From contig NC_049982.1 in the NCBI RefSeq assembly GCF_000003815.2, positions 18,405,534 through 18,469,533 of the forward strand: DNA of 64,000 nt. The letters are read 5' to 3'. The stretch comes from Branchiostoma floridae. Lineage: Eukaryota > Chordata > Leptocardii > Amphioxiformes > Branchiostomatidae. Below, piece by piece: positions 13,910 to 55,400 of the stretch. The notes below the pieces were generated by a model. The model was not told the origin of the DNA and did no database searches. It worked only from the letters and a program-made list of their open reading frames with translations. A program made the position numbers and the translations under genes. Each line of letters starts with the position of its first letter. Position 1 is the first letter of the stretch.

Positions 13910-16169
13910 ATGTCGTGGTTAGATCCTGTAGAAACGACTTATCAGGGTGTAACGGAGAATGAACAGGCGCTGCTGGCGGCGATTCTGCAAGGTGACGCGG
14001 AGAAGGTGAGACAACTGTGTACACAGCCTGACGTGGACCTGCACAGAAAGGTGACGCGGCATGGAGAGGGCGATCTCGCCTCCCTACAATGGGAGGACTC
14101 CTTCCTGTGCACCGCAGCCGAGCTGGGGCACGAGGGGATCGTCAGGGAGCTGGTGTCAGCCGGGGCCAGGGTCAACCTGCTCTGCCGGGACAGGGACGGC
14201 TTCACGCCGCTGATACGTGCGATCGTGCACGACCAGGTTAGTACCGTTACCGGGTCATGACATCTGTGGTCAGCCAAGTAGGTTAGAACCCCCTTGGGTC
14301 AACCAACCTCCTTGGGTCTTTGTGGGCGTGATGGCGCTGTACAAACAACAGCTAAATGTCAGTTTGATAGGGAGGGCGTGAGTTACCAGACTCCACTGGT
14401 TAATTCAACCGTTGCCCAGGCATTATATCTCCTTTCAGACGCCCAATTGATTGAAAGAGAAAAGTTGGTTTCAATATACATTTGTATTTGCAGGAAAGGA
14501 TAGTCAAGGCAAGGAGGTTAAAAAAGGAGGTGGTTCAATCAGAAGTCCCTTTGTATTTGTATGTGTATGTGTTATAGTTCCCTCCGAAGACCTTGGAGCA
14601 GCCGGTTCTGTTTATCAGAGTAGCCAAGCTGTCCTGCTCCACATTTGGCTGAATGAGTAAATCTGGTGACCAGTGTATGACTCACATGAGCTGAGCATGA
14701 TGAGGTTGCATTGTTGCCTACACCATTCATATTGAGCCATCATCCCATCAACAAAGTAATAGAACATTAGGGAGTGGAAGACATCATTGGCAAATGTCCC
14801 CCAAACTGAGACAGGGAAAGTAGAAATGTGGTCGATATAGGACCTGGATATCGGGCTAGCCAATAAAGATGATGAGCATGTTTACATTGTATTTTCACAG
14901 GTTCCAGTAGTAGAGGCTCTTCTGAGAGACCTCGGGGCAGATGTCCACCTGGCAGACAGCTGCGAACAATCACCCCTGCACCACGCCGTCCGTCGTGTCC
15001 ACGAACAGAAGCGACTACGGATCCTGCTCAAGTATGGGGCAACCGTCAACGCGCAGGACATGTGGGGGTACACACCACTGGTGGCAGCCATCCAAGATGC
15101 AGGACCAGTGCTAACAGTGGAGGTACTGCTGAAGGAGTATGGCGCAGACCCAAACCTAGCTGATAACAACGGCCGCACTTCCCTGCATTGGGCCATGCGC
15201 TCGGATCATGCTGACAAGCTGCTGCCGTTGTTGAAAGAAGCGGGGGCCGACGTGAACGCCCAGAACAAGAATGAAGCTACGCCGCTGATCAGAGCAATTC
15301 TGTTTGACCGCGTTTCAGCTGTAGAAACCTTGGTTCGAGATTACAAGGTTGATCCCAACGTACCTGACGACATGGGACTGACACCTTTACACTGGGCTGC
15401 CAAATCCAGACATGCTACCCCATTGGTGAAAACTCTCCTGGCCGCAGGAGCAGACGTGAATGCGAAGGACGGACAAGAGCAGACACCCCTGCACGTTGCG
15501 TCTGGTTCAAACTCTGCAGAAACAATCTCACTTTTAGTGGATGCTGGTGCAGAAGTGAACTCGGTTGATGTGAAGGGTAACACAGCCCTCCATATTGCCG
15601 CACGGGAAAATGCCAACACTGAAGTTTTCAAAGCCCTTATCAGCCACGGCATCAACATTAATGCAAAGAATGAAGAAGGGGAGACATCATTGTTGTTGAC
15701 TATGCAGACACAGGCCAGTGACGCCTTCCAAACATTGCTTGACTCCAACGCGGACCTGCAGATTGTGAGTGATACGGACGACTCCCTCTTGCATATGGCA
15801 GCACGAAGGGACGCCAAGGACCTTGTACGGATGCTGCTACAACAAGGGGTGGACGCCAACACCAGTAATGCTGTGGGGGACACCGCTCTTCATGCCGCAG
15901 CACGCAGAAATGCTGACGAAGCCGTCCAAGAACTGATCCAAAAGGGCTGCAGCGTGAACGCGAAGAATGCGAGTGGGGACACACCTCTCCATCTGGCTGC
16001 CAAGTGTGCCTACGCTGGATGGGATGAGACGCACATCGTTCAGATCCTAGTGGAGAGTGGTGCTGACCCCAGTTTGAAAAACAAGGAGGGAAAAACACCA
16101 TATGAGGTTGCAAAGGACAGCAACTTTCCGGAAGCCACAGAGTACATTTACAAGGGACTGGAAGAGTAG
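13910..16169 (+). CDS. Ankyrin-repeat protein, two exons
   Basis: Exons 13910-14236 (109 codons) and 14901-16169 join in phase 0 (GACCAG|GTTAGT; TTTTCACAG|GTT), giving 531 aa. Almost the whole protein is ankyrin repeats of about 33 residues, roughly 13 in all, with typical cores such as DGFTPLIRAI, GLTPLHWAAK, QTPLHVAS, NTALHIAA, DTALHAAARR and DTPLHLAAK, each followed by xxLLxxGAxxN. No SOCS box, kinase, Death domain or membrane segment is visible, so it is best called a pure ankyrin scaffold. The intron cuts inside a repeat, just after RAIVHDQ. The 3' UTR is about 570 bp if AATAAA at 16739 is used. A specific partner or pathway cannot be named from the sequence. Confidence 0.9.
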
Positions 16170-17053: not shown

Positions 17054-17784
17054 ATCTTATTACCTGGATGTCTAACCTCCACTTTGAAATGTTTTTTGGG
17101 TGGTATTTGAAGCCTAGCCTACAAAATGGAGAGATATTATTGATTTATTGGGAGAACATATGGCAAACACTGCAATATTGAAAGTTCCCTACATTATGAG
17201 CAGGACGGCTTAAAACGCTTGAACAGATAAAACAGGAACACCGTCTTTGGACTGAGAGAATAATGATAAATCAAAGCCCTATGGAAAACTATATTGTATG
17301 ACTTGTATGTGTGATGGTGATGATTCATTTTCAATGGTTCTGTGGCCTACACCATTGCTAGCCAAGGGGTAATAGTTCATCATAGATAATGTTTATTTTA
17401 CTTATGCAACTTACATTAATAAACTTTGCATCACATTAATCAACTTTTACCATTGTGATCTACACTGCAATGTATACCATTATTTCTGTACGCCAGTACT
17501 AGTAATATTTTTCTGTCACCACCCCACCCCTTAAAATTGAATAAACTATTCCAAGAACATGGCGAAGGTGGTGAAGAAAGTTTCGGTTCCCGACTCGCAA
17601 AGTGTATAAACTTCGGTCTGATGTTAGGGGTTTGGTGAAATGCAGAAGCCTGTTATACAGCAGATCACAGGGAATATATGGAAGCTCCAACTTAAGGCTG
17701 AGGAGCATGAAGACAGAGCATGAAGTGAGAAAATAGATTTTGCTCGGGGACTTTCCAGTTTAGGGGATTCCCCTCGTCGTATTA
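17054..17784. other. Spacer before the CARD-TIR gene
   Basis: AT-rich, with no domain or splice structure. A 69-codon minus-strand frame at 17499-17708 is not recognised and is not called. Confidence 0.4.
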
Positions 17785-18150
17785 GGCCACACCAATTTAA
17801 TTTCTTGGTTCACGGATTTTTTCATAAAAAATATGGAGCGAGAGGGCGAAATAAAAATAAGAATAAAAATTGTAAAATGGTTGGGGTAAAGGTAACGGCT
17901 AATCCAAAACATAAAGAAAAAAGTTTTCAGCTTGAAAAAAGTACAAAAACACTATTATTGTACAGTAACAGCACCTGTACCCACACTTTAAGGAGCTTAT
18001 AATATAAAGGCCAATTTGCTACACCAGAAAGATGGTGAATGGTTTCATTAATGGTGAAAATTTGCAGAGTGGTAATCTTTATTTTTATTTTATTTTCCAA
18101 AAAATAGGAGCGAGCGAATCCGTGAACCAAGAAATTAAATTGGTGTGGCC
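17785..18150. mobile_element. Harbinger-like MITE, copy 1 (366 bp)
   Basis: Terminal inverted repeats of about 34 bp: the left begins GGCCACACCAATTTAATTTC and the right ends GAAATTAAATTGGTGTGGCC. Both flanks are TTA, giving a 3 bp target-site duplication. GGCC-starting ends plus a TWA-type duplication are the known signature of PIF/Harbinger elements. No transposase is present. It ends 130 bp before the ATG of the CARD gene, so it may contribute promoter or 5' UTR sequence. A second, inverted copy is at 31625-32074. Confidence 0.88.
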
Positions 18151-18280
18151 TTAGGGGCCAATTTTACAGGTACTGTTACTTTTCCCCCTGGTATGTCTTT
18201 CCATTTATCGAATGTAGTCAAGATCAATAGCCACTAAAAGTGCCTTAAAGTACTTTTGAATATATACTGGGGCATTTGTA

Positions 18281-18695
18281 ATGGATCCTCAACATCTGCG
18301 TGCCTTGAGAGACCACCGTGTACAGCTGGTACATGGAACCAAGCACATTCCCACCATACTAGACTATCTTGTACAGGACAACATCATCACAGAGGAAGAT
18401 GAACAACAAGTACAAGAAAAGGATGGACCAAATCAGATCCGCAAACTACTGGCCATATTGCCATCCAAAGGGGACAGAGCATTTCAGTCATTCTGTCAAG
18501 CACTAGGGAGGACTGGGCATAGTGGATTGGCCAGAAGACTTAATACCTGTAGTAATGATGTAGACAGGACAGGACAAAATGTTATCTTTGACCCAGGAAG
18601 TTCTCAACATTCAAGGTTACATGACCAGAACAGCAATGCTGTCAGCAGCTGTGCACATGATCTCCAGACTGTCAATAAACCAACAAGAAAGAAAG
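18281..18695 (+). other. CARD exon
   Basis: Residues 1-90 match a CARD: six predicted helices with the usual spacing, beginning MDPQHLRALRDHRVQLVHG, then ILDYLVQDNIITEEDEQQV and LLAILPSKGDRAFQSF. Acidic patches (EEDEQQ) and basic helices suit homotypic CARD-CARD binding. The last 48 residues are a polar linker ending KPTRKK. The donor (AAG|GTGATT) leaves phase 1. Confidence 0.85.
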
Positions 18696-21600
18696 GTGAT
18701 TCTTTACGTCTTCTTCTGACATTCTGTAATCAGTTAAACTTGTTGAATCAGTTGAAGTGTATCCATTGGCATAATACCGGCAGTAATACTTATAAGTTAT
18801 ACCGTCAAATGACATAAACGATAAATTTTCGGTGATCCACTAGCGAGGCAACAGTAATTTCCGAGCACACTTCAGACATCCACGTATTTCACACATTTTC
18901 AAAAAGGCTTTGATAACAGTGCATTCGAAGACAACAAGGCCAAAAGTTTTCACATCATTTTCGGGGCAGGCAAGCTCGTCATGGGATGAACACACTGTCA
19001 CGTTCATCGCAAGATTTGTAGATAATAATCGCACATGCTCACGGCACAAGACGAGCATGATTCAACAGCAATCTTGAATTTCTTTTGGTGACCAACAACT
19101 CGTGTAAAAGTGTGAAGAACCGTTGCATTATTGCCCGGATCTACGGCTGAATGGGTCAAATTGAACGTACGCCGCCATTTTCCCGCCATTTTTAATGCTA
19201 TGCCAGCAGTAAAGTTTGACGTCATAGCGGTTGTGACGGACCAAAATTAAATGAAAATTCTTGATAGTAAACGCCCATTTTTTCATGACTTTTTGTATGC
19301 TCACGCAGGTTTTTGTTTTGTGCAATTACTAACAGCAAAGGAAGGAAAAACAGAGGATGTATAAAGGTACATAGCGGCAGTTAGTTGTGCCGTGTTTCGT
19401 TCTGCCGGTATTATTGCACCCCCTTCCAACCACGCGCCCGTTCTTCGTGCAATTCCGTGGTGTGTTCCAATTACGATATTATGTTTTTAACAGGACAAGA
19501 GAGACAAAAAAATATACACAGAAGAAGTGGCAAAGGTAAGCTGTAACAGCAACATGTAACTGGAGAAAATGATGCGTTGATCATTTGCCAAATTAGTATT
19601 GCTTGAGAAATTGCAGTAAACCTGCCGGTATTATGCCAATGGATGTTAATGCTTGAGACAAAGCTTTATGATATATCAGTGTTGATATCCGTGTTGATAT
19701 ATCATGCACTATTAATTATGCACTATTATTTTATATCATGCACTATTAACTGATAAATTAAAATGTAGTAAAAACTATGCTTATGTATAGTCACAGTTAC
19801 AGCTCCTTTTACTATCAAAGTAATATATAAAGTATAATGTTAGTACGTACCAATTACACATGGCATCATATGTTTGCTGTTACAAGTGTACATTGTGAGA
19901 TGTATCTTCATGATGTGTAATGTTACTAGGGACATTTTTTCCTGTGTACAGTTTCAGGGGAGCATGTATTCATTGTGCATGCAGGAGAAGACAAGGATTC
20001 CTTTGTCAGGCCACTTGTCCAAACCCTCCAGGATAAGGGTATCGCCCAAGAAGACATTTTCTATGATGAACTGTCCATCAGTACTGGGGAAGTCATCCGA
20101 GACAGGATCATGTCAGCCCTAGCTAGTGACAGTATGGAAGTTGTTGTGATTGTAGCTAGCAAGAGTCTGCTGAATCACAAATACTGGCCAAAACTGGAGC
20201 TAGAAACTGCTCTCAGACACAACAAGAGACTGTACCCTATCTGGCTTGATGACAACCTGGATTCATTCAAGGAGTTTAGTTCCTTAGTCGGCCAGTATTG
20301 CCCAACACTGAAGCAAATCAGGGCCCACTGTGTACTGACTTCAAAGATATCAGAAGAGATGGCTGTAATTGCCTCTGAACTCATGTCCATGATATCATGC
20401 TCAATTGTTCAAGAAAATGGGCATAAATCAAAAGATTCTCATACAGGTAATGCAGGAAGCTCCATGACTTCAAACTTTAGTAGGTTTGTTGCAGAGTTGC
20501 CCGATATGACTCAAGGTTTCACACAGTCAGGACCAACTACCTCCCCTTGTCAGTTATCCAGTGAGTCATCATCAACAATACTTAGTGGTACTGTTGAGTC
20601 CATGGGCTATGATCAATTTGATGCCTCCCAAACAACAGCTACTAGTGCAGTGTCATCTGGAATGAACAGTGTTGGGCAGGAGTTCATCACTCAAGCAGGA
20701 CCCAGTACGTCTCCCTTACAGGGATGCAATGGACAAAGTTCAGTTCAGTCTAGACACATTAAGTCTCCTTTCATGTTGGAGGATGCTAGTGAGGATGAAA
20801 AGTTCATGAAGAAGATGCATAGTGGAGTAAGATCTGCTCATAGCATTTCTGGAAATCAGCATCAGCTACATGGAGCAGGGAAGAGACAATCCACAAGCAG
20901 AAAGCCAGACAGTCCTTACATGAGCCCATCAAGACTGCTAGACATAGGTAAGAACTGATTAATGTCAGGCTCTTAATGTGGATCTTATTGATGCGCTGTG
21001 TGGATATGGGCCAGTACCTTGTACAAATGTTGTAGGTGGATGTTGTAGGTTAAATACAAATACTATGTGTCATGCACAAAAATGTAAATATTGGAATTAA
21101 TGAAGCCATCAAATATAAGAAATACAAGTAGAAGTTGTACAAATTAGTGTACATTATGTAAATACACTTGTCTGAATTACATCATGGTAGGATAATAAGA
21201 TGCTTTTCAGGTTTGCAGTTTGAAAGCAAGTCAGCATACATGTAACAGATATCAGTCCTTCCAACTGTCCAACTGATAACTTAAGATTCAGAGCACTCCT
21301 GAATTTTTTTCATGTATTATTGCAGACTTAGAGGCAGCTATGGAGGTTGTGGTGGCCAGCATCATTAGTGATGAGTGGAGAACCCTCCTCCATCACCTGG
21401 GTCTGTCTGAACTGGAACTGGAAACTCTGCAGAACAAGGAGACGCCAGAGGCAGCCTGTGAGGCAGGACTGAAACTGTGGAGGGAGACCAGAGGTCAGGA
21501 AGTCACCACAGAGAGACTGGTCAGGGCTGTCAAGGACACTAAGGTCAAACTACGGAATGGTGCAGGTACCACATAGTCATGCATTAAATAACAATAATGC

Positions 21601-24600
21601 TATCAAGAAGTTTACACTAGGTTTGGAGTGAGAATAAATGATTGTTGCCTTTACTACATGTATAATACATTTCATTTAAGAGATATTTCTACATCTTGTG
21701 ATTATACATTATTTATATTATCTTACCTTATGGCCAACACAAGAATGCATATGCATATAGGGCTGATGTATATGCAGAGCGATGCATATGCAGAGCTTCC
21801 TTGGTAGAATACTTGATAGAGATATCTCATAACTCCATATTTAGTCAGTGTTTTTTTAAAGTAGTACCGCGCCATTGGGTAATGTTAATGAGTTAGTGAC
21901 GTCACTGCCTTGACTGTCAGGGATCCCATGATCCTCTTCGCCCTCTTCTATCATGGCTGTACTTGAGTGAGCTTCATGGAATAAACGCCTCTTCCAATCA
22001 AGTTGCATCGGCTCCTATGATTCACTATCGCGTCCCCTTGTCAATGTTGGCGTGGTGTGCAGCGGCTGGGAAACGATACCCAGGCCCAAACCCGAACTTT
22101 GCGCAGGGGAGATCGCACTCTGAGTGGACGGGAAGCCACTAGCAAATGAGGATGTAGGTCAACAATGGCGTCATCACAAGTGCAGGAGGGGATCTGGTCT
22201 TAGCTCCCCAGCGGAGCCCTTGGTCGGAAGTTATGCGTGACTACACCTCATCCTTGCGCCAGCTTCGCTGAACAACCCCCAGAGGACTCATAGAAGTCGC
22301 AGGGAGTAGTACTCAGCTTACCTATCCGGCAAAACCCCGAATCTTCCCAGTGTCCCCCGGCCGTGTGAGTACAACGTCAAAATTCACCAACCGCCATGTT
22401 TCTTTCGTTCAACCTTCAACATAACGTTCTACCCGATTTGACGCGGACCGCCCACGGACATGCCCACCTACGAACTCCGCTCTACAAACTTCGTCTGATC
22501 ACCGCTGAACTGTGCCAGCTCAGAAGAATATCATCTACGCTGAACTGTATACCAGCCAAGAGGCACTTTATGCTCCAGCCGAGAAGAACATCGCTCACGC
22601 CGAACTGTAACTGTTAACACCTCCGGCCAAGAGAGTCACAGAACTTTGACAGTCACGAACTTTGCCCAAACAGAACTCTGCTTTACCAGTATTTTTTTTT
22701 TCTCCTGCAGATAATCGATATTGTATTCGTCCCCATTTTATGTTAGCTACGACATTGGTATCTCACAGAAAAACATTGACAATTTATTTCAGTCCAACTG
22801 TTACCTTCATTCGTACGTAATGTATTCACAATCTGATGTTACATAATTGTTATCTTTCATATTATGTTTAACAAACCTTACCTCATTAGTCAACACTCTT
22901 CTTCACGTACATTGTAATGTTATATCTGTCTTTTCATTAGATCTAGATTTCCCAAGTATTGTTAAGGGGATTATTTCATGGACTTCACTATTGTTAATGC
23001 ACACCTTGCAGATTTTTAGTATTTATACCATTCATTACGAAAAGTAAACAACAGGCTTTGATTTTTTTAAACATTGCATCTATTGTTCTTCCCAATTTTT
23101 AGCACACGATAGTTTTGTAAAAAGGAGAAAGAGAGAAATAAGAGGATAAAGAGAAATCACGCCATTGGGTAATGTTAATGAGTTAGTGACGTCACTGCCT
23201 TGACTGTCAGGGATCCCATGATCCTCTTCGCCCTCTTCTATCATGGCTGTACTTGAGTGAGCTTCATGGAATAAACGCCTCTTCCAATCAAGTTGCATCG
23301 GCTCCTATGATTCACTATCGCGTCCCCTTGTCAATGTTGGCGCCGGTATAAATAAAGGTATTACCTGGCAATTCAATTATCATCCTTACAGTCTGATCCT
23401 TATTTGTCAGATGTGAAGATTAAACTATCCATTAAAGAAAAGTGGACTGACTGGCTCAACAAAAAGGCTGACATCATCTTCACAGAAGAGGTGCTAAATG
23501 ATCCGCAAAGGTTTGACTCTGCCATGCTAAGGTTTGACAAGCTAAAAGGTTCCATCAAGGATTTGTGGGAGGGTAGTGTGTGGTGCCTCCTTACATTCTA
23601 TCGATGGAGCAGCGTGCAAGAGTTTGTGGGTGGCTGCAGGGAGGGAGCCTTGACAGAACTCCTCACAGAAGATTATGTGGATGAGCAGATGATGGCAGCC
23701 TGTGGAGGGACAGAGCTATATGTCTGTGTGGAGATAGACCAGACAGACCTGCACAAAGCCTGGAACTTCTTCCATGCAGGTCAGTTCAAGTTCTTTGCTG
23801 TAGGTAATCATATAAACAAAGTGACATGATTAGTTCTGGTCCATAAATGTCATAAAAGTTAAGGGTCAATAAAATGTTTTCCTTGGCAGATTGTAACTCC
23901 CCTGATGAGGATCACCCCCCTTCTGGTGACTGGCAGGCAGAGACCATATCAGCACTCTCCTCCTCATCATCCCCTGATGGAGAGCCAATGGACATAGACA
24001 CACACATCAGTGTCAAAGAGGAACCGATGGATTTTGAGTCAGGTTAGATCTTTGTCTCCTTTATGTTGATTTCCCTACCATGAAGAATGTATTTCATCCA
24101 CTCCATTTTCTTTCCCATTTTGCTTTCTGCAGATGTTTGGCAAAGTGACAAGTTAAAAGTGGCAAAGTGGAAATTGCCTGAATGATCTGATTGATTGAAT
24201 TAGTAATAATATGTATCAATGATATTACTAATTCCCAATATTATATTTATTCACCAACATCACATTTTTTATTCAGATCTTGACACAGCCTTTGAGATAG
24301 TGTCCAAAGACCTGTGGTCTGACTGGGAGCGGCTGGCCCGTACCATGGGCTTCACGCAGTCTGATGTAGACAGCATAAAGTCAGGGTCACCTGACCAGCC
24401 ATACGAGCAGTGCTGGCAGCTGCTGTACAGATGGAGGGACAGGGAGGGACAGAGGGCAACTCTACAGGCACTGATGCAGCAGCTGAGGGTGGCAGGGTTC
24501 CATGAGACATCAGGTAGCCTTCTACACCACCAAAATGTATTCATTGGTTATATCAAATGTCAAGTCTGACTCCATGAAGGTTGGTTGCATGCGAGAACCT

Positions 24601-27600
24601 ATTAGTTTTCTTATAAGGTATAATGTATACAATTTCAGGTTTTTCATTGCTTTCACCTCTGTGCACTGGGTACAATGTTGAGTCCATAAGATTTCTTGCG
24701 TTTTGATTTTTAGAAAAGCTTGACATTGGAGACATGTCTGACCAAGAGGAACATGGAGCAAGCAAGAAGTCCTGGGATGACAGCGAATCATCCTCAGACA
24801 GTGACAGTGATTCTGATGGAGGTGAGGTCAAGAAATTAAGATGGGGCTGAAAAAAACAACTTATTTTGAACTCTATTTCATAACATAACAGCATTTATAT
24901 TTTCTGCATTGGTGAATTATGTAAAAAATAGAAAAAGTTGGCTTTGTTGATTTCAAGGTCAATATGAAGTCTGACACAGTGTGTATGTACAATTAATATG
25001 TATACAGGATTTGGTTTGGGTCTACCCTTTTCTGTTTGTACATTTATATGCTGTCTGTAAATTGGTTGACATCGTTTGTTTCCACCCATGGTTGTGCAAT
25101 CACAGATGACAATTCTATGAAAGGTGCAGTATCAATAAGATCCAAGATGAAGCAGTTGAAGAAGGGGAAACGTCAAGTTCCTGACCCTCAGTGGTCCACA
25201 GTCAAGGGAGTGAAGAGGAAGAAGATGGAGGATGATGGTGATGTGGAGATGCATATGGTGAAACAAACAGGTACCTGCACTGTAAAGCTTTTACCAACTA
25301 AAGAACACAATGAGTGAACATAAAGAATACACTTTGTACATAATAAACCACATTTCAATTCTTCTTCTTATTGAATGATTGTCCTTATATGATAGGAGCT
25401 TATGTATCCTTATATGATAGTATCATGTTGGAGTATACAATGTATTTTGTGTCTCATACTTCAGGTCAGTATTGGTTGTTTCTCTTAGACTCAGTAAATA
25501 TGTCTCTTATATTCTTCACTCAATATGACAGACAATATCTGCTTCATTGATAGCTTGGTCTTCAAAAACACAAGAGACCTCTATGCATGTAGTTGTTTGA
25601 AGTTTCTACAATCCCTGAAAATCTCTCATCTTACCTTAGGTGTAACAACAAGTGACAGCACAGTACCGGCTGAGGAGGCCACTGATGACCTGTCCTTCAT
25701 GTTGACCCCTGCTGACATCAAATGTTGGCAGGATGCTATGAAGACGCATGTTCTGTCCACTAGTAGAGTTTCACTGGAGGAGCAGTTCCGCTTCAACATG
25801 TTGGTGATGCACCTCATCAAAGATGAGTACTACCACAAACATCTGTGCTGTTACTGGAATGATAAGGGTTCTCTTCCAGTAAGGCTTACACAGTTTGTGT
25901 CTTATGTTGTTACAAAATGTGGTCATGAACACTGTATCAAAGGAAATCTTGATAAAGAAGTGTACGATGGCATGGAGCAAGACATACAATACCAATTGGG
26001 TAAATTGCTCTTCAAACAGGATGCCGCAGGTGTATGTAAGCAATTGTCACGTGACAGTCTACAGTCTTGTTTTACTAATGACCAGTTGAAGTATGTGCAG
26101 GCCTGGCTAGAGCCAACCTCTGACTCAGGGTCCTCTGTTGCTCCATACTACAGATTCAAGCATGAGTGTGTACGGCAGTACATAATGGCTGTATGGGTGG
26201 CAGGGACAATTTATGAACAAGGAGAGACTATCAGGGCTAATGATTTTTTGAGGCAATGCTTTGATATTTCCTCAAAGTTGGACACCATGGCATACCTTGT
26301 TGCAGGACATATGGCACAGAATGACCAGGTAGAGCTGTTCTCCTATCAGCTGTCCAGAATCTTATTCTCCATGGATACAACAGATTTTTCTGTCATCCAG
26401 AAAGTTGCCATATGTGTTGCAGAGACAGGGCAGGTTGATAGATTTGAAAGTCACACATCACAGATTTTTCCAGGTAATGTCATTGATCTAACATCATGGC
26501 CAAGCATGAGTTACTTAGGAAAGCTGTCACTGGCACATCTGAAGGAAACATTTCCTTTGACATGTAAACTTTCCCATGAGGATGATATCCTTAAGCTCCT
26601 GTTCAAGTCCAAACAGAACAAAGCAGAGGCACAGCTTGTATTGTCCCTTATGAAGTCCAGACATAGGTCTGTTGTCTTGTACCCACACTACAAATCTTTG
26701 TTAGAAGGCAGCACAGCTCTGGTTTCCCAGACACCATGTCGCATTGATAAGCTTTACCTGAACAACCTTGCACTTGCTGACCCTGACTTTAGCAACATCC
26801 TCCCACTGCTACAGTTTGTACCTGGACTGAAGCATTTGAGTCTTCAAAAGACTAAATTATCTATCTTTGGTATGTCAAAAATATGTGACTTCTTGTCTTT
26901 CATCCCAAATATTGAACATCTTGTCTTGTTCAAATGTAGAATTCCCAAAGATTCTTTTCTTACTCTCACTGAACATTTGCAATGCCTCAAAAAGTTAAAG
27001 CATCTAAATCTGTCACAGACAGTTTTGACCAATGAGGGAGTAAACCTTTTTGCACATAACTTGTCAAGCCTGAAAGCTATAGAAGTTTTAGATCTAAGAA
27101 AAACTAAGGTTGGAAAGGATGAGGTGGCAAATTTGTGTGAGTCCATTGCTAATATGGACAACATACCACAATTAATTCTTGGTTCCCAAACATCTTCCTA
27201 CAGATTCTTCCTTGGTATTACTAACAGTAGGGGCAGCAGGCTCATCATCCAGACTAGTGACTTGAACATTGTTTCCCTAGTAAGTAAACTTTCCTCTCAG
27301 GTCTACAGAGTGCAGTTAAGCCACCAGGGCAAGGTGTTGTATTCAGTACAGGCAAAGGAAGGAGAGAATAAAGACATGACATTCGATCTCACATGTTCTG
27401 GTAACATTACTGAGAACATCCATGCTCTTTCTTTAGTACTGCCTGTAGGACATCGTGTGCAGCAGGCAGATGTGGAGCAGCTCGAGCTGGGTGTTTGTCT
27501 CATTGGGGATGAGGAGGTGGCACTCCTGGCTGAGATGTTTTGTTATTTACCATGTCTCAAACATCTAGACTTGTCCAATAACATGATCACATCTTCAGGT

Positions 27601-28059
27601 GCCTTAGCTGTAGCTGCTCACATATCACACCTACAGCAGCTGGAGTGGTTAGATTTGAGTGGTAACAACATTGGTGAGGTTGGTGTCACAGCTATGAATG
27701 AAAAGTTGGTCAATCTTGAAAAGCTGAAATATGTTAACTTCAATATGAATAGTGTTACTGTTAACATGAGAACATGTCTGCTTCTCACACTCTCTAACAT
27801 GGAGAACCTTTCAGAGGTAAACCTCAGCACAGAGAGGTCATTTTATCTGTATCTCCTGGGTGTGTACAACAACAAGGGCAACAGGCTGACCATCAGGACC
27901 GGTGATGCTGATGTTGTCTCATTAGTTGATCAGGTGTTCTCTCAGGTGTACAGAGTGGAGCTCAGCTGGAGGGGCAAAGTTTTGTATTCAGTACAGGCAG
28001 ATGGGGGCCTTAGGGGAGAACCCACCCAGGATGACATTAGATCTGACATGTGCTGGTAA
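18281..28059 (+). CDS. CARD-TIR-Death-TRADD_N-Death-LRR protein lacking a NACHT NTPase
   Basis: Exons: 18281-18695 (CARD), optional 19494-19535, 19952-20947 (TIR), 21326-21565 (Death), 23411-23779 (TRADD-N-like), 23890-24042 (acidic), 24277-24513 (Death), 24714-24821 (Ser/Asp), 25106-25270 (basic) and 25640-28059 (NLR remnant plus LRRs). Every junction is GT-AG and phase 1; the model gives 1,700 aa, or 1,714 with the optional exon. By domain content it is a cytosolic innate immune or cell-death receptor/adaptor. The last exon resembles an NLR from the winged-helix region onward (LPVRLTQFV, then FKHECVRQYIMAVWVA), but no GxxxxGK[ST] P-loop is seen in any exon, so NTP-driven oligomerisation is unlikely. 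The start is the first ATG of the CARD exon. The C terminus is affected by a frameshift (see 28009-28720). The order is unlike textbook NLRs. The full transcript is inferred; the exons could instead belong to two genes. Confidence 0.75.
18761..19644. mobile_element. 884 bp terminal-inverted-repeat element in the CARD-TIR intron
   Basis: The ends are inverted copies of ATCCATTGGCATAATACCGG (about 23 bp). A related internal motif (TGCCGGTATTAT) lies near 19402. Overlapping minus-strand frames cover 18840-19325 without a recognised transposase. That part holds AAAATGGCGGC on the minus strand, the core of a YY1 site, as in the first exon of many genes. It may be a non-autonomous element that captured a host promoter/first-exon fragment. 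No target-site duplication could be assigned. Confidence 0.65.
19494..19535 (+). other. Candidate 42 bp micro-exon inside the transposon
   Basis: TTTTTAACAG|GACAAG and GGCAAAG|GTAAGC are good splice sites around 42 bp. The length is a multiple of three, so inclusion keeps the CARD-TIR frame and adds a basic 14-residue linker (about GQERQKNIHRRSGK). In phase 0 it would instead read DKRDKKIYTEEVAK, which looks more like natural coding sequence and suggests it came from a captured gene. Use by the host gene is uncertain. Confidence 0.35.
19952..20947 (+). other. TIR exon with long Ser/Thr-rich linker
   Basis: The TIR domain covers about the first 140 residues. Box 1 is HVFIVHAGEDKDSF, followed by DIFYDELSISTGEVIRDRI and VVVIVASKSLLNHKYWPKLE. 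The Glu pair in the helix after YWPK sits where NAD-cleaving TIRs keep their catalytic Glu; animal TLR adaptors instead carry an RDxxPG box here, which is missing. The sequence is closer to the TIR_2 type, so NADase activity is possible but only inferred. About 190 Ser/Thr-rich residues follow, without a domain. The acceptor TGTACAG gives phase 1, matching the CARD donor. Confidence 0.85.
21326..21565 (+). other. Death domain exon 1
   Basis: Eighty residues encode a complete Death domain: ISDEWRTLLHHLGLSELELE, then AACEAGLKLWRE and TTERLVRAVKDTKV. The W in the first helix and the ALxxWR-type motif are the family markers. The exon is symmetrical (phase 1-1), so it can be gained or lost without a frameshift. 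Confidence 0.85.
21870..23342. mobile_element. TRIM-like LTR element (1.47 kb) in the Death/TRADD-N intron
   Basis: Direct terminal repeats of 183 bp at 21870-22052 and 23160-23342 read the same base for base by eye. Each starts CGCCATTGGG, ends CAATGTTGGCG and holds an AATAAA. A TGG-initiated stretch at the inner edge of the left repeat could be a tRNA primer-binding site. A polypurine run (AAAAAGGAGAAAGAGAGAAA and more) lies just before the right repeat. No gag or pol is visible in the 1.1 kb between, so it is a terminal-repeat retrotransposon in miniature or a heavily deleted element. The repeat ends are not the usual TG...CA and no target duplication was found. Identical repeats imply a recent insertion. 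Confidence 0.75.
23411..23779 (+). other. TRADD-N-like domain exon
   Basis: About 123 residues. The core WCLLTFYRWSSVQEFVGGC followed by REGALTELL, and then a strand ELYVCVEI, resembles the N-terminal TRAF2-binding domain of TRADD (LRF..R..C..FL..YREGALR...L, then a strand rich in aliphatics). The link rests on the REGAL motif and the strand/helix pattern, not on an alignment. An alternative donor at 23803 is also phase 1. Confidence 0.6.
23890..24042 (+). other. Acidic linker exon with SUMO-type site
   Basis: Phase 1-1 exon of 51 residues, rich in Ser, Asp, Glu and Pro. It ends with SVKEEPMDFES; V-K-E-E fits the SUMO consensus. No domain. Confidence 0.65.
24277..24513 (+). other. Death domain exon 2
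   Basis: Seventy-nine residues with Death-domain features: LWSDWERLARTMGFTQSDV, then SPDQPYEQCWQLLYRWRDRE and ALMQQLRVAG. It is clearly diverged from the first Death exon. Phase 1-1. Confidence 0.85.
25640..28059 (+). other. NACHT remnant and LRR exon
   Basis: About 806 residues in one exon. Residues 1-290 resemble the NLR region after the nucleotide-binding domain (winged helix and helical domain 2). LRRs of ribonuclease-inhibitor type follow (LKHLSLQKTKLS, LKHLNLSQTVLTNEGV, LKHLDLSNNMITSSGA). From about 27200 an internal unit of about 640 bp recurs at 27840 and, in part, near 28610. The frame ends at 28059 because of a shift in a run of five G (28003-28007). Confidence 0.7.
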
Positions 28060-28720
28060 CATTACTGCAAACATCCAGGCTCTTTCTGCAGTCCTGCCTG
28101 TAGGACACCGTGTGCAGCAGGCAGATGTGGAGGAACTCAAGCTGGGTGGGTCTTTCATTGGGGATGAGGAAGTGAGACTACTGGCTGAGATGTTCTGTTA
28201 TTTACCATGTCTCAAACATCTAGATTTGTCTCATAATGGGATGACATCTTCAGGTGCCTCAGCTGTGGCTGCTAACATGTCACACGTACAGCAGCTGGAG
28301 TTGTTGGACTTCAGTTTTAACACAATCGGAGATGGCGGTTTTATAGAGTTGGCTGACAGCTTCAGTTTTATCCAAGAACTCAAATATCTAGACCTGTCTC
28401 ATAACTGGATCTTATTCACTACTAGTGATAGTATTATTGCTATGAATGAGAAATTACCCTATCTTTGGCAACTGAAATGTTTGAAAATTGATACAATAGG
28501 TCTGCATTACAACACCAAGAAATCACTGCTAATCACATTATCAAACATGCAGCACCTATCACAAGTGCATGTCAGCTCCAGCTGGGGTCCTCATGTGATT
28601 GATGAGGTTGAACGTTGCTTGTTTGTTAACAACTGCAATGGCAGTTTACTCACTATCAGAACAAATGACACTGATGTTATATCACTAGTAACTCAGCTGT
28701 TCACACAGGTACAGTTGTGA
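28009..28720 (+). pseudogene. Frame-shifted LRR tail of the immune gene
   Basis: After the G run at 28003-28007 the LRR coding sequence continues in another frame to 28720. It matches the preceding unit closely (LTCAGNITANI, GHRVQQADVEELKLGG, LAEMFCYLPCLKHLDLSHN). One extra G in the run would explain the shift, so it is either a real truncating mutation, an allele difference or an assembly error. A third partial unit begins near 28610 (LLTIRTNDTDVISLV) and stops at TGA near 28718 within degraded repeat sequence, so the end of the array is itself decayed. Confidence 0.75.
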
Positions 28721-28856
28721 TGGGGATCCAGAGTTGTGTTCAGTATGGGTGGTGAATGGTGTCAGAATTTAAACACATTCAGTTTCATTAAACCCAATAA
28801 AAGTCTATCAGTTTGTCCTCAGGCTACCCTGTAAAAAAATTCAGCTGTCATTTCAG

Positions 28857-29158
28857 ACAGTGATGTGAAGTTTGATATTCTGAATCCACTCTGGGATAAA
28901 AAGGTAGTAACATCAATCGTGGTAAAGTTTCTGAAAGACAGGATTGTTGATATTGATGCTTCAGCAGCTGCTGTACCTCCTGATCACAGAGTATTCTGCA
29001 ATGTGCCTCATGTGGGTATTCCTCCCTGCTACATTTTACCCCCCCCCCCCCAAGTTCTTATGCTTAGGTGTCCATTTTTTTTCTGGTTACAACATCATAT
29101 CTTGTACCCTAGTGACAAGCTGCATGTATGCTTTAGTGGTAAACATGACATTATGTAA
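28857..29158 (+). other. Candidate trailing exon, phase 1
   Basis: CATTTCAG|ACAGTG is a fair acceptor and would enter in phase 1 like the exons upstream. The frame then starts DSDVKFDILNPLWDKK, echoing DVKIKLSIKEKW at the start of the TRADD-N-like exon, and runs into a poly-C tract (29041-29052). No domain is recognised. It may be an orphan exon from a related gene copy. Confidence 0.25.
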
Positions 29159-29793
29159 TCAGCTTAAAATATCTTGTTGCATCAGCTGATCTAATCAAAT
29201 CATCATCTCTTACTACAATGTATTAGTTGCCTTGAAAGCTCTTAGACATTTGTCAGCTACTTTCAGTGTATGACTGAACGCATCAAATCCACACGAGTGG
29301 TCTTGTGCAGCATCTTGTAGCATACATACTCTGAGAACCAACAAGGATTTAGATAACAGTAAGTCAATTTGAGATGAGCTGATGTTGTACAGTGTACATT
29401 TTTATTACATATTGTAAATATAGCATCTCAAACAGACTATTTTTGTACAGAAGAAAGATGTTTAGGAGCAGCTATTACATTGTCTAGTTTGGTACACACA
29501 ATATTTGGCAACAGACCAAGACTGTTGTGACAGTGTTGTGACAGTGTATTGAATAGTCTAAATAAATCTGCTTCAGAAATATAAGTCATTGTGTTCTACA
29601 TGTACCATCCGTAATTCTTCTAGGCCCATCCCTAACTGGAGTCATACGTATTTACAGAATGGAAACTAACTGCATACATAAAAACATATCATCACCTGAT
29701 TACTATAACAGCGTAATGCAAATTTTACTTAAGCTATGGTTTGATTTGGAAAGAAACATACATATATAGCTGGAATATTGCAACGTTACCAGC
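29159..29793. other. Spacer, no gene recognised
   Basis: AT-rich sequence between the end of the immune gene region and the next MITE. Several AATAAA-like motifs occur (for example near 29560) and could end the upstream transcript. No coding signal is seen. Confidence 0.4.
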
Positions 29794-30016: not shown

Positions 30017-33000
30017 TTACACAACCTTGGCCATGATGGGCTGCACCCAGCTGACCACCAGCCCTGTCACCACCAGGGTCACCTGTAACATGATCCCTGA
30101 CATGCTTCCCAGCATGCCTCGCAACCACTGCAGCATCAGTCCCAGCATACTCTTGGGCTTTTTGGAGGAGGCTTTTCCAATCGGTTCCTGGAACACAAAC
30201 CAGTATATCATAAATTTATACAGTAACCATGATTTGTAAAATCTGTACCAGAAATGTGCCTGCACAATGAAAAAAGAGTGTTCTGACTGGCCTCACTGAC
30301 ATACAGTTCTGTCACCAGACTCTTATGTTTACATGTGCCTGCACTCATTTTATACTCGAGGACAATAAAAAGGACAATAAACAGTGATTGCACAAACCAA
30401 GAAAGAAATGGAATTCTCTTTCATTCGCCTGAGTGTTTACTAACCATCATAAGGTTGTGGTGTGTGAGGAACTTCAGCAGTGAAGGGTCGTCCTTCTGTA
30501 GCGGGGGAAGGTACTCGGATTGCCGCTCTCGCCTCCACCATGCAGAGCTGGAGAACAAGGGCTCATGGTGATGTCCTACATTTGTATGTCTGACTAATCA
30601 AAGCTGTACACAGAAGCATAACTCTGCAATTGTACAGTATCCTTGGTTTCATCCTGATTTTCGTAAGGTTTCTATTAAGAGTATTAATTATGATAACAAC
30701 AGTTACATCCGGGGGCTTTTACTGCCTATTTTGTAGACTGCTTTATTTCACATGGAATATAAAACATCAATACCCCTTTTAAGGGAAATGCCATACCTAT
30801 TTTTGCCCCAGTCAGTGAAGTGATAATGGTACAGCGTAGCCCGGATGTACTTTGGAGGTTTTCCGTTAAATGGGTCGGAGTCCATGAGTGCGAGAACATT
30901 CTTGTCTCCATGCAGCAGCCTGTGCACCATGTTGACAAACCAAGGGTTGTGTCCGTAGCTGCCCAGCGCTGCAAACCACAGCTGCCAGTCTAGTCTGGGC
31001 TGGTGAGGGGCTGGGGTCGACACAGACATACATGTACATGTACAGGTGCAGTGACATGTGGACTGTTCATTCAAAAGGTCAGCTATTCTATCCATGAAGG
31101 TAAAGGACAATACATTGGGGGAAAGTTTAAAAAGGAAACTATTGTTACAATGTAGATGTATCTGAATGACTTAGCATTATGTAAGTGATCTGCTTACCTA
31201 CAACAGGTGGGGCCACCTTCACATTTCCTGGCTTGTACAAAAAGTCATACTCCTGGGGAAAAAGGAAACAGTGTAACTACTCAAGACAAGCATATTTCAC
31301 AAAAATTATTAATATAACATGATGTTTTTCCTTCATAGTCAATTGCGCCCCTTCAAAGTCTCTGAGAAGCTTCAGGAATTCTGTTTTCCATGAGCCTTGA
31401 ATACTTCTTTCCTGTAGTAAACAATAAAAAGCTCAGGTCACAATCATTATCAAGTTTGAATAGAAGTGAAGTGTCTCTGCCTCACCTTCCATCCCAGCTG
31501 TAAGGAGTTACTGCCCTCCACGATAACCTCAGGTCGCCCTCCCACCCCAGTCATTCTGTAGGGGAAACAAAAGAGTCATGAGTCAAACATACCATTGCCA
31601 AGATAGGGGGATAGACAGGCTTTAGGCCACACCAATTTAATTTCTTGGTTCATGGATTTGCTCGCTCCTATTTTTTGGAAAAAATAAATAAAAATAAAAA
31701 TTACCACTCAGCAAATTTTCACCATTAATGAAACCATTCACCAACTTTCTGGTGTAGCAAATTGGCCTTTATATTATAAGCTCCTTAAAATGTGGGTATT
31801 ATTATTGCAGTTATATTTTTCATTCATGAAGAATGGGATAAACATAAAAACTGACACTACTTTTGTAATTTTGAACGAACAGGCGCTGTAACTGCACAGT
31901 AATAGTGTTTTTGTACTTTTTTCAAGCTGAAAACTTTTTATTCTTTATGTTTTGGATTAGCCCTTACCTTTACCCCAACCATTTTACAATTTTTATTTTT
32001 ATTTTCATTTCGCCCTCTCGCTCCATACTTTTTATGAAAAAATCCGTGAACCAAGAAATTAGATTGGTGTGGCCTTATAGTAAAAAAAATAACCAACAAC
32101 CAGTTATTACTTTTCCCACATGTAAAGTGTGTACAAAAATACATAAACATGAAGCACTTCACTAATCAGCATAGCTCCAAAGTTTTTGTAAACTAATACA
32201 TGTATTTCATTATCATTCATGTTTCATATACTGTTACAGTGATTTCATCTCACCGTCTGAAGAGCCCATAAGAGTTGACCAGTTGAAACTTGTCCACTCT
32301 CTGGTTCCACTGTTTGACTATAGGCCACAGGTTGTTGTTTGACTGCCAGTCTATCACTGTGTGGGGCACCTGAAAGGGTACAGGGCAAACTGATTTTCTG
32401 ACAAGTCGTGCATAATTGTTTTTCTGTCTGAAAGCCATTCATAAGATCAAAATCATTATCACAGAGCAAGGAAGTGTTATCCATAATTCTGTTAAAATCT
32501 GTAATTACACATTACCATCAGAATCATGACAATCATTTTAACATGTGGATTCAAAATGTTGGCATTCCTTTCTTACATGATTGCCTCTACAACTTTTGAA
32601 TCAACAAGATGTATGGCAACATTTCTTGATTAGATTTAATAGGGGAAAAACTACAGATACTTTTATGAAGAAATAGCAATGATGCTTTAAATTCTAGTAG
32701 TATGAAACAGAACTTGTTCTTTCCAGTTTTCAATATATGTAGAACAGATCTATCCACAGATCATTTTATCATTGATGATTGTGTTATTTTATTGACGTGA
32801 AGTTCCATCAATGTTGTTACTCACCAGACTGATAGTGAACACGAACACGGCTACAGCTGAGAACAGAAGGCACCTGATGCAGGTGAAGACTTTTCTTCTT
32901 AAACTGTCTTCACCGGTAAAGGACCTTTATCAGAACAAACATAAAACAAACAGTTAAAGAACTAAATCTTAAACAGATAGTTTGCAACAAATCTTAATTA

Positions 33001-52400: not shown

Positions 52401-55400
52401 TGGATGGATGTACCAAGTGTTGAAGATGGGGTAATAAAGTCCAGGCTGACGGAAGGTGTCTGACTTGATATCGATGCACTGGCTGAGGAGCTGAAGATCA
52501 AGTCTGTTGCTGGTCCATCCCCTGACCCATCAAAGCCTGGAGAGGACTCCAGGACAGGTACTGATATGGTTGATAGAAGTGGCAACAAAGATGAAGCAAG
52601 ATCAGGTGTATATGAAGGTGTCAGGCTGAGTAGTTGCAATGATGAAGAAGGGCTGAATGAATCAATGATGTACGATTGGCTGGGCTGTAATGACGGTGTC
52701 ATGACAACAGTTGGTGTTACAGTTGCAGAAGGAACTGACGATCCCAAGGTGTCAGCAACTGTTGAGGCAAGGGAAGATAATGGCTCAACTGTACTGAAAG
52801 AGTCAATACTGTATGATGGGCTTGGACTCAGTTGTAGTGATGTTGCTGATGCAGTTTGGGTCAGCACTGGGACTGTTTGTGAGAGGAAGGGGAGGTCAGA
52901 GCCTGACCCTTCAAAGTCATCACTGCTCATGGAAACCGATGATCCTGATGGTGAGCTGATGAGCTGGGGTGTTGCCGTCATGCCATCAGCCAGACTTGAT
53001 TCAGATGTGCTGAGATCCAATGTTTGCAATGACACAGTCTCCAAGACCTGCAATAATTTAAAAGTTGACAAATTTAATCATCTGTAAAAAGAAGTTAGTC
53101 GGTTGATGTGTGCTATGTTTTTGTCCTGTTTGAAATATCAAGTGCAATGGATGCAAGATGACAGAAACACACAGAGACACTTACTTGCATGGACAAAGAT
53201 GGCAGAGGTTCCAGCTGAGACAAGCTTGAAGGAGACGGCACAGGCAGAGACGGTCCAGTTGGGAAAGAAGCAGTAGTTTCGGCAGAGAGAGGAACTACGG
53301 ACAACACTACTACTGGTACAGAGCTAGCTGACAGCTTTACAGGCAACAAGGATGCAAGCGCAGAGGACGGCACATGAACAGACATTGATGGAAGCTTGGA
53401 TGATGACAGATGGATTGGCAATGCAGATATTGAGGATGGACTATGTTGGTGTGTGGTCATTGAATGAATGTATTTTGGAATCAATGTATAGGTTACCATT
53501 GCTTCTGGCAAGATAGTGGCTGGAATTTCAATGTCAGATGATGGCACTTGTAGGAAAGAAGATGAAATGGCACTTGGTGCTCCGGTGAGGACAGGAGAAT
53601 TTGTTCTCTTTCCTTCCAAGGTCGACATTGTAGTCTCAGACAGTTCAAGTGATTGAGGTAAATCTGATACCAGTTGAAGCGACATAATGTCAAGAGGTTG
53701 TCTGTTGGTGGTGCTTGTCAGACTTGTTGTGTGGTACATTGGAGATGTTTCTAGAGCGTCTGACAGTGAGAATATTTCAGGTGAAAGGAGCAACAACTGT
53801 GTGTCAAGAGATAATGATTTTGTAGGTTGGACTTTTAGCTGCTGATGTAGTCCAGACGGTACAGATGCAAACTCACTTGTAGATGGTTCTATAGGATGAT
53901 TTTGCTTGGAGGTGAAACTATTGGTTTGCATTGTGACTTTCAGCATTTGTGGTTGATCAGCAGAAGAAAGAGACTCAATAGGAAATATCTCTGACATGAT
54001 AACTGATTGATCTGTCACACTGTTTTTCAGAGTTGTTGACATGGGAGCAAGTGATGCTGGCACACCTGACAAGGTTCCTGGAGAAATCAAGGAGGGAGCT
54101 TCTGACAGGTGTTCAGACAAGTATGCTTCTGTAAACTGCATTTTGAAATTGGATGTTTTTGGCAGTATTTGTGAAGAATAAATTGCATGTATGCTAGTAG
54201 TTCTAGGCAAAAGTTCTGTCTCAGATGGATGTAGGTTGTATTGAATGCTTCCTGACACCACCTTGGTTTGTTTCTCTGATGGTATGAGTTTTTCTACAGA
54301 GGAAAAATAGTGCAAATCTGGGGTAAATGTAACTTCTGTACGTTGTAAATCTCCTATAGTCTCAAACACTTGCTGAGTTGACTCATGATCATATATCAGG
54401 GTAGTGTCAACTGGTGTGGCAGGAGGGGGTGATTGCACATTGAAAGACTTGGATGCAGTAAATACAGATCTTGAGTGTGTGAAGTGTTGATATGATGAAG
54501 ACAGATTTCTGGATAGATGAGATGGTGAAAGTGCAGGACCTGGTGTAGATGATGGTGTCACTGTCTGAGACAGATCTTGAGTAACAGTGGTGTCTGATAT
54601 TGTTTGGTAAGACAGCACTGTTTGCTGAGTTGCTGAAAGTATCTGTATGGGCAGAAAACTTGCTTCCATGTACACAGATGAAGTTTGAGTGTGTGACATG
54701 TCAAGACTTGCTGATAACAAAGACTGTGGACTTGTGGGTAAAGGCGATGTTGAAATGATATTTGAAACAGCTGATTCCAATGATACTGGCAAGTATGGCA
54801 GGAAAGTTGGCAGTTGTTGTAGTGTGAGTGAGGATGGAAAGTGTTCTGATGGGTACAGTGTATTCATAATCTCAGTTCTTGTTGTTGGCCCCACTAGTGG
54901 TAATTTGTTAGTGGAAAATGGCATGACAGCAGAGGTACTGAATATTAGTGAAGGGTTAGAAGCCAAGTAGTCAAGTGTATCAAGGTTTGATTTTGTTGTA
55001 GTGAGTCTGTTTTGTAATGTGTTACCCTTCCCTGCAACTGCTGTAGCTGATTGATGTGGCTGTAGCTGGAATGAAGATACGTCAGCTTTGGTTATAACTG
55101 CGGTCGCCACTGGCACTGTTTGTGATTGGTACTCAGTGAAGATCTGAACATCCTCAGTTCTTTGCAACATAGAATTAAGCGCATGCAACGACACATTCAC
55201 AGACACTGATGGCAAGACAGACGGCACAAGCACAGATCCAGAGGCATTCTGGTTCAGTCTTTCTGTGATTAATGATGGCAGCTCATTGATGGATGACAAT
55301 GATGGAGTCATGTTGAGAGCAGCAGTGTTGGATGAGAGGGAAGAGAGAAGGATGCTTGGCTGATTGACAATCGCTTGAAATGATGTCACCATGAGCATTG

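Follow-up and report, generated by a model that had tools for sequence, protein, structure and literature searches.

NLR immune receptors are defined by an ATPase that acts as their switch. We describe here a gene of the amphioxus Branchiostoma floridae that appears to derive from an NLR and to lack this switch. The gene lies on the forward strand, at positions 18281 to 28059 of a 64-kb stretch of DNA (C4:18405534-18469533, hereafter the window). The NACHT-LRR receptors, among them the amphioxus TIR-NACHT and Death-NACHT genes covered in PMC2575513, share with it an HD1-WHD-HD2-LRR tail, N-terminal CARD, TIR or Death domains and the same TIR family. Unlike them, the window gene has no NACHT domain or P-loop, has lost the HD1 proline and joins five adaptor-type modules in one chain. 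The cephalochordate TRADD-N proteins of the DEDD2 clade, as far as the accessible part of PMC8195603 presents them, share TRADD-N and Death-like domains, variable flanks, LRR fusions and the uS motif, whereas the window gene places CARD-TIR-Death before these parts and an NLR tail lacking the NTPase after them. A place in this clade is suggested by the closest TRADD-N relatives, which stand beside GT4-conflict exons; Kaur et al. (PMC8195603) describe the GT4-TRADD-N pairing and assign it to the DEDD2 clade. Vertebrate TRADD also has TRADD-N followed by Death, with weak direct similarity, and the window gene differs by its additional CARD, TIR, Death and HD-LRR. SARM1 and the bacterial TIR NADases share the TIR domain (matches to TcpB and AbTIR, with an aligned Glu), but no SAM or ARM was found in the Pfam scan of the window exons as would be expected of SARM1.

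In the literature searched, we found no account of an NTPase-less NLR tail or of this domain order; the supplements and the Figure 4 data of PMC8195603 were outside the search and may list such genes. The initial annotation, made from the sequence alone, knew of no described protein with this order; multi-domain TRADD-N expansions of amphioxus had already been published (Kaur 2021, PMC8195603).

Gene structure and the NTPase-less NLR tail

Nine exons were assembled between 18281 and 28059. All introns are GT-AG and in phase 1, and the joined frame of 1698 codons is open.

18281..18695, +: exon 1, start codon, CARD (Pfam 4.9e-18) and linker, with a phase-1 donor
19958..20947, +: exon 2, TIR (Pfam TIR_2 4.7e-11) and Ser/Thr-rich tail
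21326..21565, +: exon 3, Death domain 1 (Pfam Death 5e-9)
23411..23779, +: exon 4, TRADD-N-like domain, named via genomic relatives; GS motif
23890..24042, +: exon 5, acidic linker with a VKEEP motif (splice sites, motif count)
24277..24513, +: exon 6, Death domain 2 (Pfam Death 5.7e-15)
24714..24821, +: exon 7, acidic Ser-rich linker (phase-1 splice sites; by eye, resembling an exon of the C215 paralog)
25106..25270, +: exon 8, basic linker with a candidate nuclear localisation stretch by eye (splice sites)
25640..28059, +: exon 9, HD1-WHD-HD2 (hhalign) and LRRs (LRR_6 2.6e-9), ending at a frame break
28060..28720, +: LRRs in a different frame (Pfam LRR_6 1.7e-12)

The encoded order, as named by Pfam and by relatives, is CARD, TIR, Death, TRADD-N-like, Death and the LRR exon. 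The open frame of exon 1 starts at 18260, just 5' of 18281. The CARD exon and the LRR exon have one open frame each, and the other two frames carry stops in every exon except the linker exon 24714-24821, whose second frame is open. With nine phase-1 exons in one frame and names given by Pfam or, for TRADD-N, by relatives, the CARD, TIR, two Death, TRADD-N-like and LRR exons of the initial annotation are real. Its interval of 18281 to 28720 stands as one frame up to 28059, but the LRRs beyond the break are in another frame.

The start of exon 9 was compared with true NLRs by hhalign. The HD profile was built from 15 of the 21 HD places of the genome (regions like 25642-26720, L015 partly masked), and the NLR profile from the stretch behind NACHT at 10 of the 104 NACHT places of the same genome (L042 partly masked). 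The two profiles aligned with a probability of 97.4 and an E value of 1.2e-11 over 247 columns, starting in HD1. The probability was 97.1 for the family minus the window member and 47.1 (E 2e-4) for the window sequence alone; by part, HD1 alone reached 67 and WHD alone 87. The controls stayed far lower, at 0.3 for the reversed profile, 0.1-0.5 for 20 shuffled profiles and at most 0.8 for unrelated TRADD-N profiles and 60 shuffles. The homology of HD1 and WHD to true NLRs is strong, and that of HD2 rests on colinearity. Since the start of exon 9 is in this way homologous to HD1-WHD-HD2, the gap left by the nucleotide-binding domain coincides with a domain boundary, and the proposal that the last exon starts right after the expected position of that domain holds. 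C-terminal LRRs are present as in NACHT-type NLRs. In PDB sequence searches, the HD region gave one chance-level match and the HD alignment gave none, so neither query yielded a relative.

The HD1 proline and the WHD histidine have nucleotide-related roles in NLRs, where the proline faces the nucleotide. This proline is present in 10/10 NLRs and in 0/15 family members, which have E, R or S instead. The histidine is kept in 12 of the 13 family members reaching that column.

No candidate for the missing ATPase was found. All six frames of the window were scanned with a strict Walker A pattern, G....GK[ST], and with a relaxed version. The strict pattern gave no sense match in the 64 kb and one antisense match with an internal stop; the relaxed one added a sense match at 49443 and antisense matches at 15198 and 31346, none of which lies in the gene. 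Across 17500-29400, all three sense frames were free of even the relaxed pattern. The absence of a P-loop from every exon, as first noticed, is thus borne out. Pfam found CARD, TIR_2, two Death and LRR_6 in the exons and no NACHT, and none of the at least 104 NACHT matches in the B. floridae genome (513 Mb) falls inside the window. Neither the sense-frame scan nor the genome list therefore revealed a missed exon with a Walker A/B NACHT core. Walker A was also searched upstream of HD1 at 8 of the 20 other HD places. Seven had no match, and the eighth (L028) had one relaxed match that by eye is not NACHT-like. As read from the sequence, signalling exons are followed by an NLR tail with no predicted ATPase between them.

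The family in the genome and its closest paralog

The HD region has 20 other genomic matches, which gives 21 HD places with the window; scaffold C215, 729 kb long, holds 14 of them. The 9 kb upstream of each place were searched for same-strand matches: TRADD-N was found at 14 HD places, Death at 13, CARD at 2, TIR at 2 and NACHT at none. This count was computed on all 21 HD, 37 TRADD-N and 28 CARD places, 42 of 61 TIR, 32 of 150 Death and 6 of 104 NACHT places; comparison by eye showed that all remaining TIR, Death and NACHT places are more than 9 kb away from any HD place. The 14 places of C215 lie between about 175 and 720 kb, and TRADD-N and Death each stand upstream of 11 of them.

The closest paralog, C215:175899-184372, has CARD, TIR, TRADD-N, a linker, Death, two short linker exons and an HD-LRR exon in the order of the window gene; a counterpart of Death domain 1 was not found there. 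Its identity to the window is 41% in CARD (C215:175899), about 65-66% in TIR, 30% in TRADD-N and 42% in Death, and its Death domain matches Pfam at 7e-10. At the borders checked, phase-1 acceptors or donors fit (candidates picked by eye), and a TIR donor was not found. Between window and paralog, nonsynonymous changes per site (dN) were 0.29 in TIR, 0.52 in CARD, 0.58 in Death2 and 0.84 in the HD region. Synonymous changes per site (dS) were 1.9 in Death2 and saturated in TIR, CARD and HD. The TIR is clearly constrained, and for the HD region the dN/dS test says little. The architecture first taken as unusual therefore recurs, without Death1, in a paralog; the window gene is the most elaborate of the 21 HD places and not a one-off. 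The HD1-WHD-HD2 homology, the lack of a P-loop exon and this paralog of the same order together support the initial view of an NLR-derived protein without an NTPase.

An NTPase-bearing counterpart lies at C215:709300-718300, with a TRADD-N match, three Death exons (Pfam 1.2e-5, 8.7e-17 and 4.2e-15), a NACHT (2.2e-23) containing GEPGVGKT and, by eye, an LRR-like tail. The window TIR family also stands next to NACHT at C4:18634307, C16:15036581 and C6:1839273. At the outlier loci L030-L032, an HD-like region and LRRs share one open frame, with no NACHT among the matches listed nearby. One of these, L031 (C16:3335000-3344000), has a Pfam CARD exon (5.1e-9) 5' of an exon that combines LRRs with a short HD1-like stretch; part of its sequence is N, which limits the absence of NACHT there. 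A third CARD-TIR pair was seen at C6:494000-496500, where the TIR is 63% identical to that of the window and contains an internal TGA and TAA.

Identity of the signalling modules

The TRADD-N exon alone had no Pfam match at E up to 10. It has 36 other genomic matches, the best being three exons on C19 (E 5.6e-24 to 1.0e-21). One of these relatives (L033) is flanked by a GT4-conflict glycosyltransferase exon (Pfam 1.1e-72) and a TPR exon (TPR_12 6.4e-30); by eye, the TRADD-N exons of L034 and L035 on C19 also lie between GT4 glycosyltransferase and TPR exons. Among the members aligned (9 of 37 TRADD-N places), PF20694 TRADD-like_N matched 5 of 9, at best 4.1e-7 and the window member not included, and the TRADD_N model matched 2 of 9 weakly, at best 0.085. 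By transitive identity through these relatives, exon 4 is a predicted TRADD-N domain. A candidate for the tiny-Ser/Cys motif that the TRADD-N superfamily carries between strands 2 and 3, assigned by sequence, reads GS in the window exon and GS, GC or AC in the relatives. PDB sequence searches with the exon gave no relative, and its scan of prokaryote genomes gave no match. Against the PDB, the alignment reached TRADD 1f2h at E 0.41, which ranks behind three chains of the unrelated GTR1 at 0.2.

Exon 2 matched PF01582 TIR at 6.3e-4, below the cut-off of that model. In the PDB it found 8 distinct solved sequences (E 1.4e-11 to 6.4e-5), including TcpB and the NAD(+) hydrolase AbTIR, and up to E 0.1 no TLR or MyD88 chain. 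The Glu aligned with that of the TcpB and AbTIR chains is present in the window TIR. As this Glu occurs in over 70% of all TIRs (PMC7075850), its presence is no proof of NADase activity, and the window TIR might at most be called a putative NADase. Death domain 1 matched FADD in the PDB at 2.4e-3, and the genome holds just 2 weak other matches; CRADD, FADD and RIPK1 are among the PDB matches of Death domain 2. The window gene has one copy of the motif [VILM]KxEP, which may be a SUMO site. Across 9 family loci there are 16 such motifs, present in 7/9 (5 of the 7 scanned C215 loci and both loci from C3 and C204), against a shuffled expectation of 1.4 on average and 5 at most (200 shuffles), all sense frames of a locus being counted and not linkers alone.

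Proposed function, rival explanations and neighbouring sequence

We consider it moderately probable that the family gene arose from NLRs by loss of the nucleotide-binding domain, kept HD1-WHD-HD2 and LRRs, and works as an ATP-independent sensor scaffold. Homotypic assembly is established for the CARD, TIR and Death families. The HD-LRR part would bind a ligand or partner, and the signal might be relayed as CARD, TIR and Death assemble with domains of their own kind. TRADD-N could bridge to TRAF-type partners, as is known for TRADD (PMC8195603). In the proposal of the initial annotation, such a scaffold might recruit caspase, NF-kB, RIP or TRAF branches. A protein lacking the ATPase could not form the ATP-gated wheel of NLRs; what remains is a helical-LRR sensor with assembling and bridging modules, so an ATP-independent scaffold is most likely, and a regulator of intact NLRs comes next. 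More tentatively, and with clearly less confidence, a whole amphioxus branch of NLR-derived receptors may have given up the ATPase in favour of a death-fold/TIR/TRADD-N chain, possibly nuclear and SUMO-controlled, as the basic stretches and the excess of [VILM]KxEP motifs over shuffled sequence may suggest. A single molecule would then engage more than one death and NF-kB branch, free of control by nucleotides.

Several results weigh against the scaffold interpretation. CARD and TIR are missing upstream of most HD places. In the genome-wide search for NACHT, 103 of 152 first-look candidates were scored, so that 104 is a lower bound. HD2 alone scores 4.1 in hhalign. No Pfam NLR model matched in the 15 HD regions; the true NLRs of B. 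floridae are themselves weakly recognised (NLRC4_HD 3/10, best 0.0019; NOD2_WH 3/10), which may explain why the tail escaped the model search. Single-sequence AlphaFold models were unusable, with a predicted local distance difference test score (pLDDT) of 37.4 for 25642-26820 and 42.7 for the TRADD-N exon. In-frame ATGs stand 5' of the acceptor in four exons (23874, 24219, 25048 and 25525), so alternative starts or shorter products are possible. Finally, the LRR frame ends at 28059, with a second LRR unit running on to 28720 in a different frame, so the allele may be damaged or misassembled. A second copy of the 3' region was not found in the B. floridae assembly, and the break at 28059 therefore has no comparison.

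Positions 28031-28330 repeat 27376-27675 in tandem with 85% DNA identity over 300 nt, the units being 655 nt apart; over the tandem LRR units (27376-28330) dN/dS is about 0.48, and the frame shifts between them. In the downstream LRR frame a stop follows 28717. The intron between Death1 and TRADD-N contains one element:

21870..23342, +: short element of the long terminal repeat type, like a terminal-repeat retrotransposon in miniature (TRIM-like), not part of the gene

Its terminal direct repeats of 183 nt (21870-22052 and 23160-23342) have zero mismatches and each contains an AATAAA poly(A) signal; by eye, the left repeat is followed by TGG and the right one preceded by a purine tract. The interior of 1094 bases occurs at 10 other genomic places over the full query, with 87-95% identity. 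Because of these signals, the intron before the TRADD-N exon is a place where transcripts could end.

Instead of one gene there might be two neighbours, an adaptor made of CARD-TIR-Death and a gene for TRADD-N-Death-HD-LRR, split in this long element-bearing intron. The poly(A) signals in both repeats are in its favour, as are the 19 of 21 HD places with no CARD or TIR match upstream, the in-frame ATGs before the acceptor of several internal exons (the TRADD-N exon not included), and the joint occurrence of CARD and TIR at C6:494460/494937 (two stops inside the TIR) with no TRADD-N or HD match listed on C6. Yet neither a last nor a first exon is seen at the split, where the exon on each side has an open frame and phase-1 splice sites. 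In the C215 paralog, CARD, TIR and TRADD-N follow one another in the same order within about 2 kb, with no copy of the intron element among those listed on C215. As a tandem gene pair copied as a block could look alike, the paralog supports but does not prove a single gene, and we rate two genes as the least probable of the explanations. A decaying copy that has lost its function is scarcely more probable. It would fit the break at 28059, which has no second 3' copy for comparison, the stop after 28717 and the retroelement in the intron, but the 1698 codons upstream form an open frame with good splice sites, CARD, TIR and Death2 differ from the paralog far more per synonymous site than per nonsynonymous site, and dN/dS in the LRR units is that given above.

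Less improbable than these, though still unlikely, is a decoy or regulator, in which the NTPase-less protein would bind NACHT receptors with matching TIR, Death or TRADD-N domains and dampen or tune them. The plant NLR fragment NRG1C is a precedent for such an NLR-regulating fragment, and possible partners would be the three NACHT genes with the same TIR family and the TRADD-N-Death-NACHT gene at C215:709300-718300. A plain decoy, however, would not need several signalling domains or a TIR conserved despite saturated synonymous change. A family of this kind would allow a direct test of whether NLR-type sensing works without nucleotide exchange, and of how phase-1 exon shuffling rebuilds receptors. 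Parts without the switch occur at about 20 places, with signalling domains conserved in two, and natural comparisons are offered by the C215 paralog and by the TRADD-N-NACHT gene on its scaffold.

Two exon candidates were left out of the gene. A 42-nt stretch at 19494-19535 (+) has fitting splice sites and sits between the inverted repeats 18761-18790 and 19615-19644; because it is inside an element, it was dropped as probably not an exon. The exon-like stretch 28835-29158 has a PCDH15-like match below the cut-off, and its phase, by eye, is unfit for the end of the LRR frame. The NCBIfam scan gave partial or below-cut-off matches only. The element in intron 1 spans 18761-19644 with 30-nt inverted repeats (90%). 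A foldback element at 17784-18151, just before the start codon, has 35-nt perfect inverted repeats, and its 16-nt end motif appears again at 31628. Upstream of the gene lies an ankyrin-repeat exon (14841-16169), and downstream the C-terminal exon of a lipase maturation factor (30748-31170, minus strand). An open frame of 2681 residues at 53113-61158 on the minus strand is very Ser/Thr-rich and has long antisense frames.

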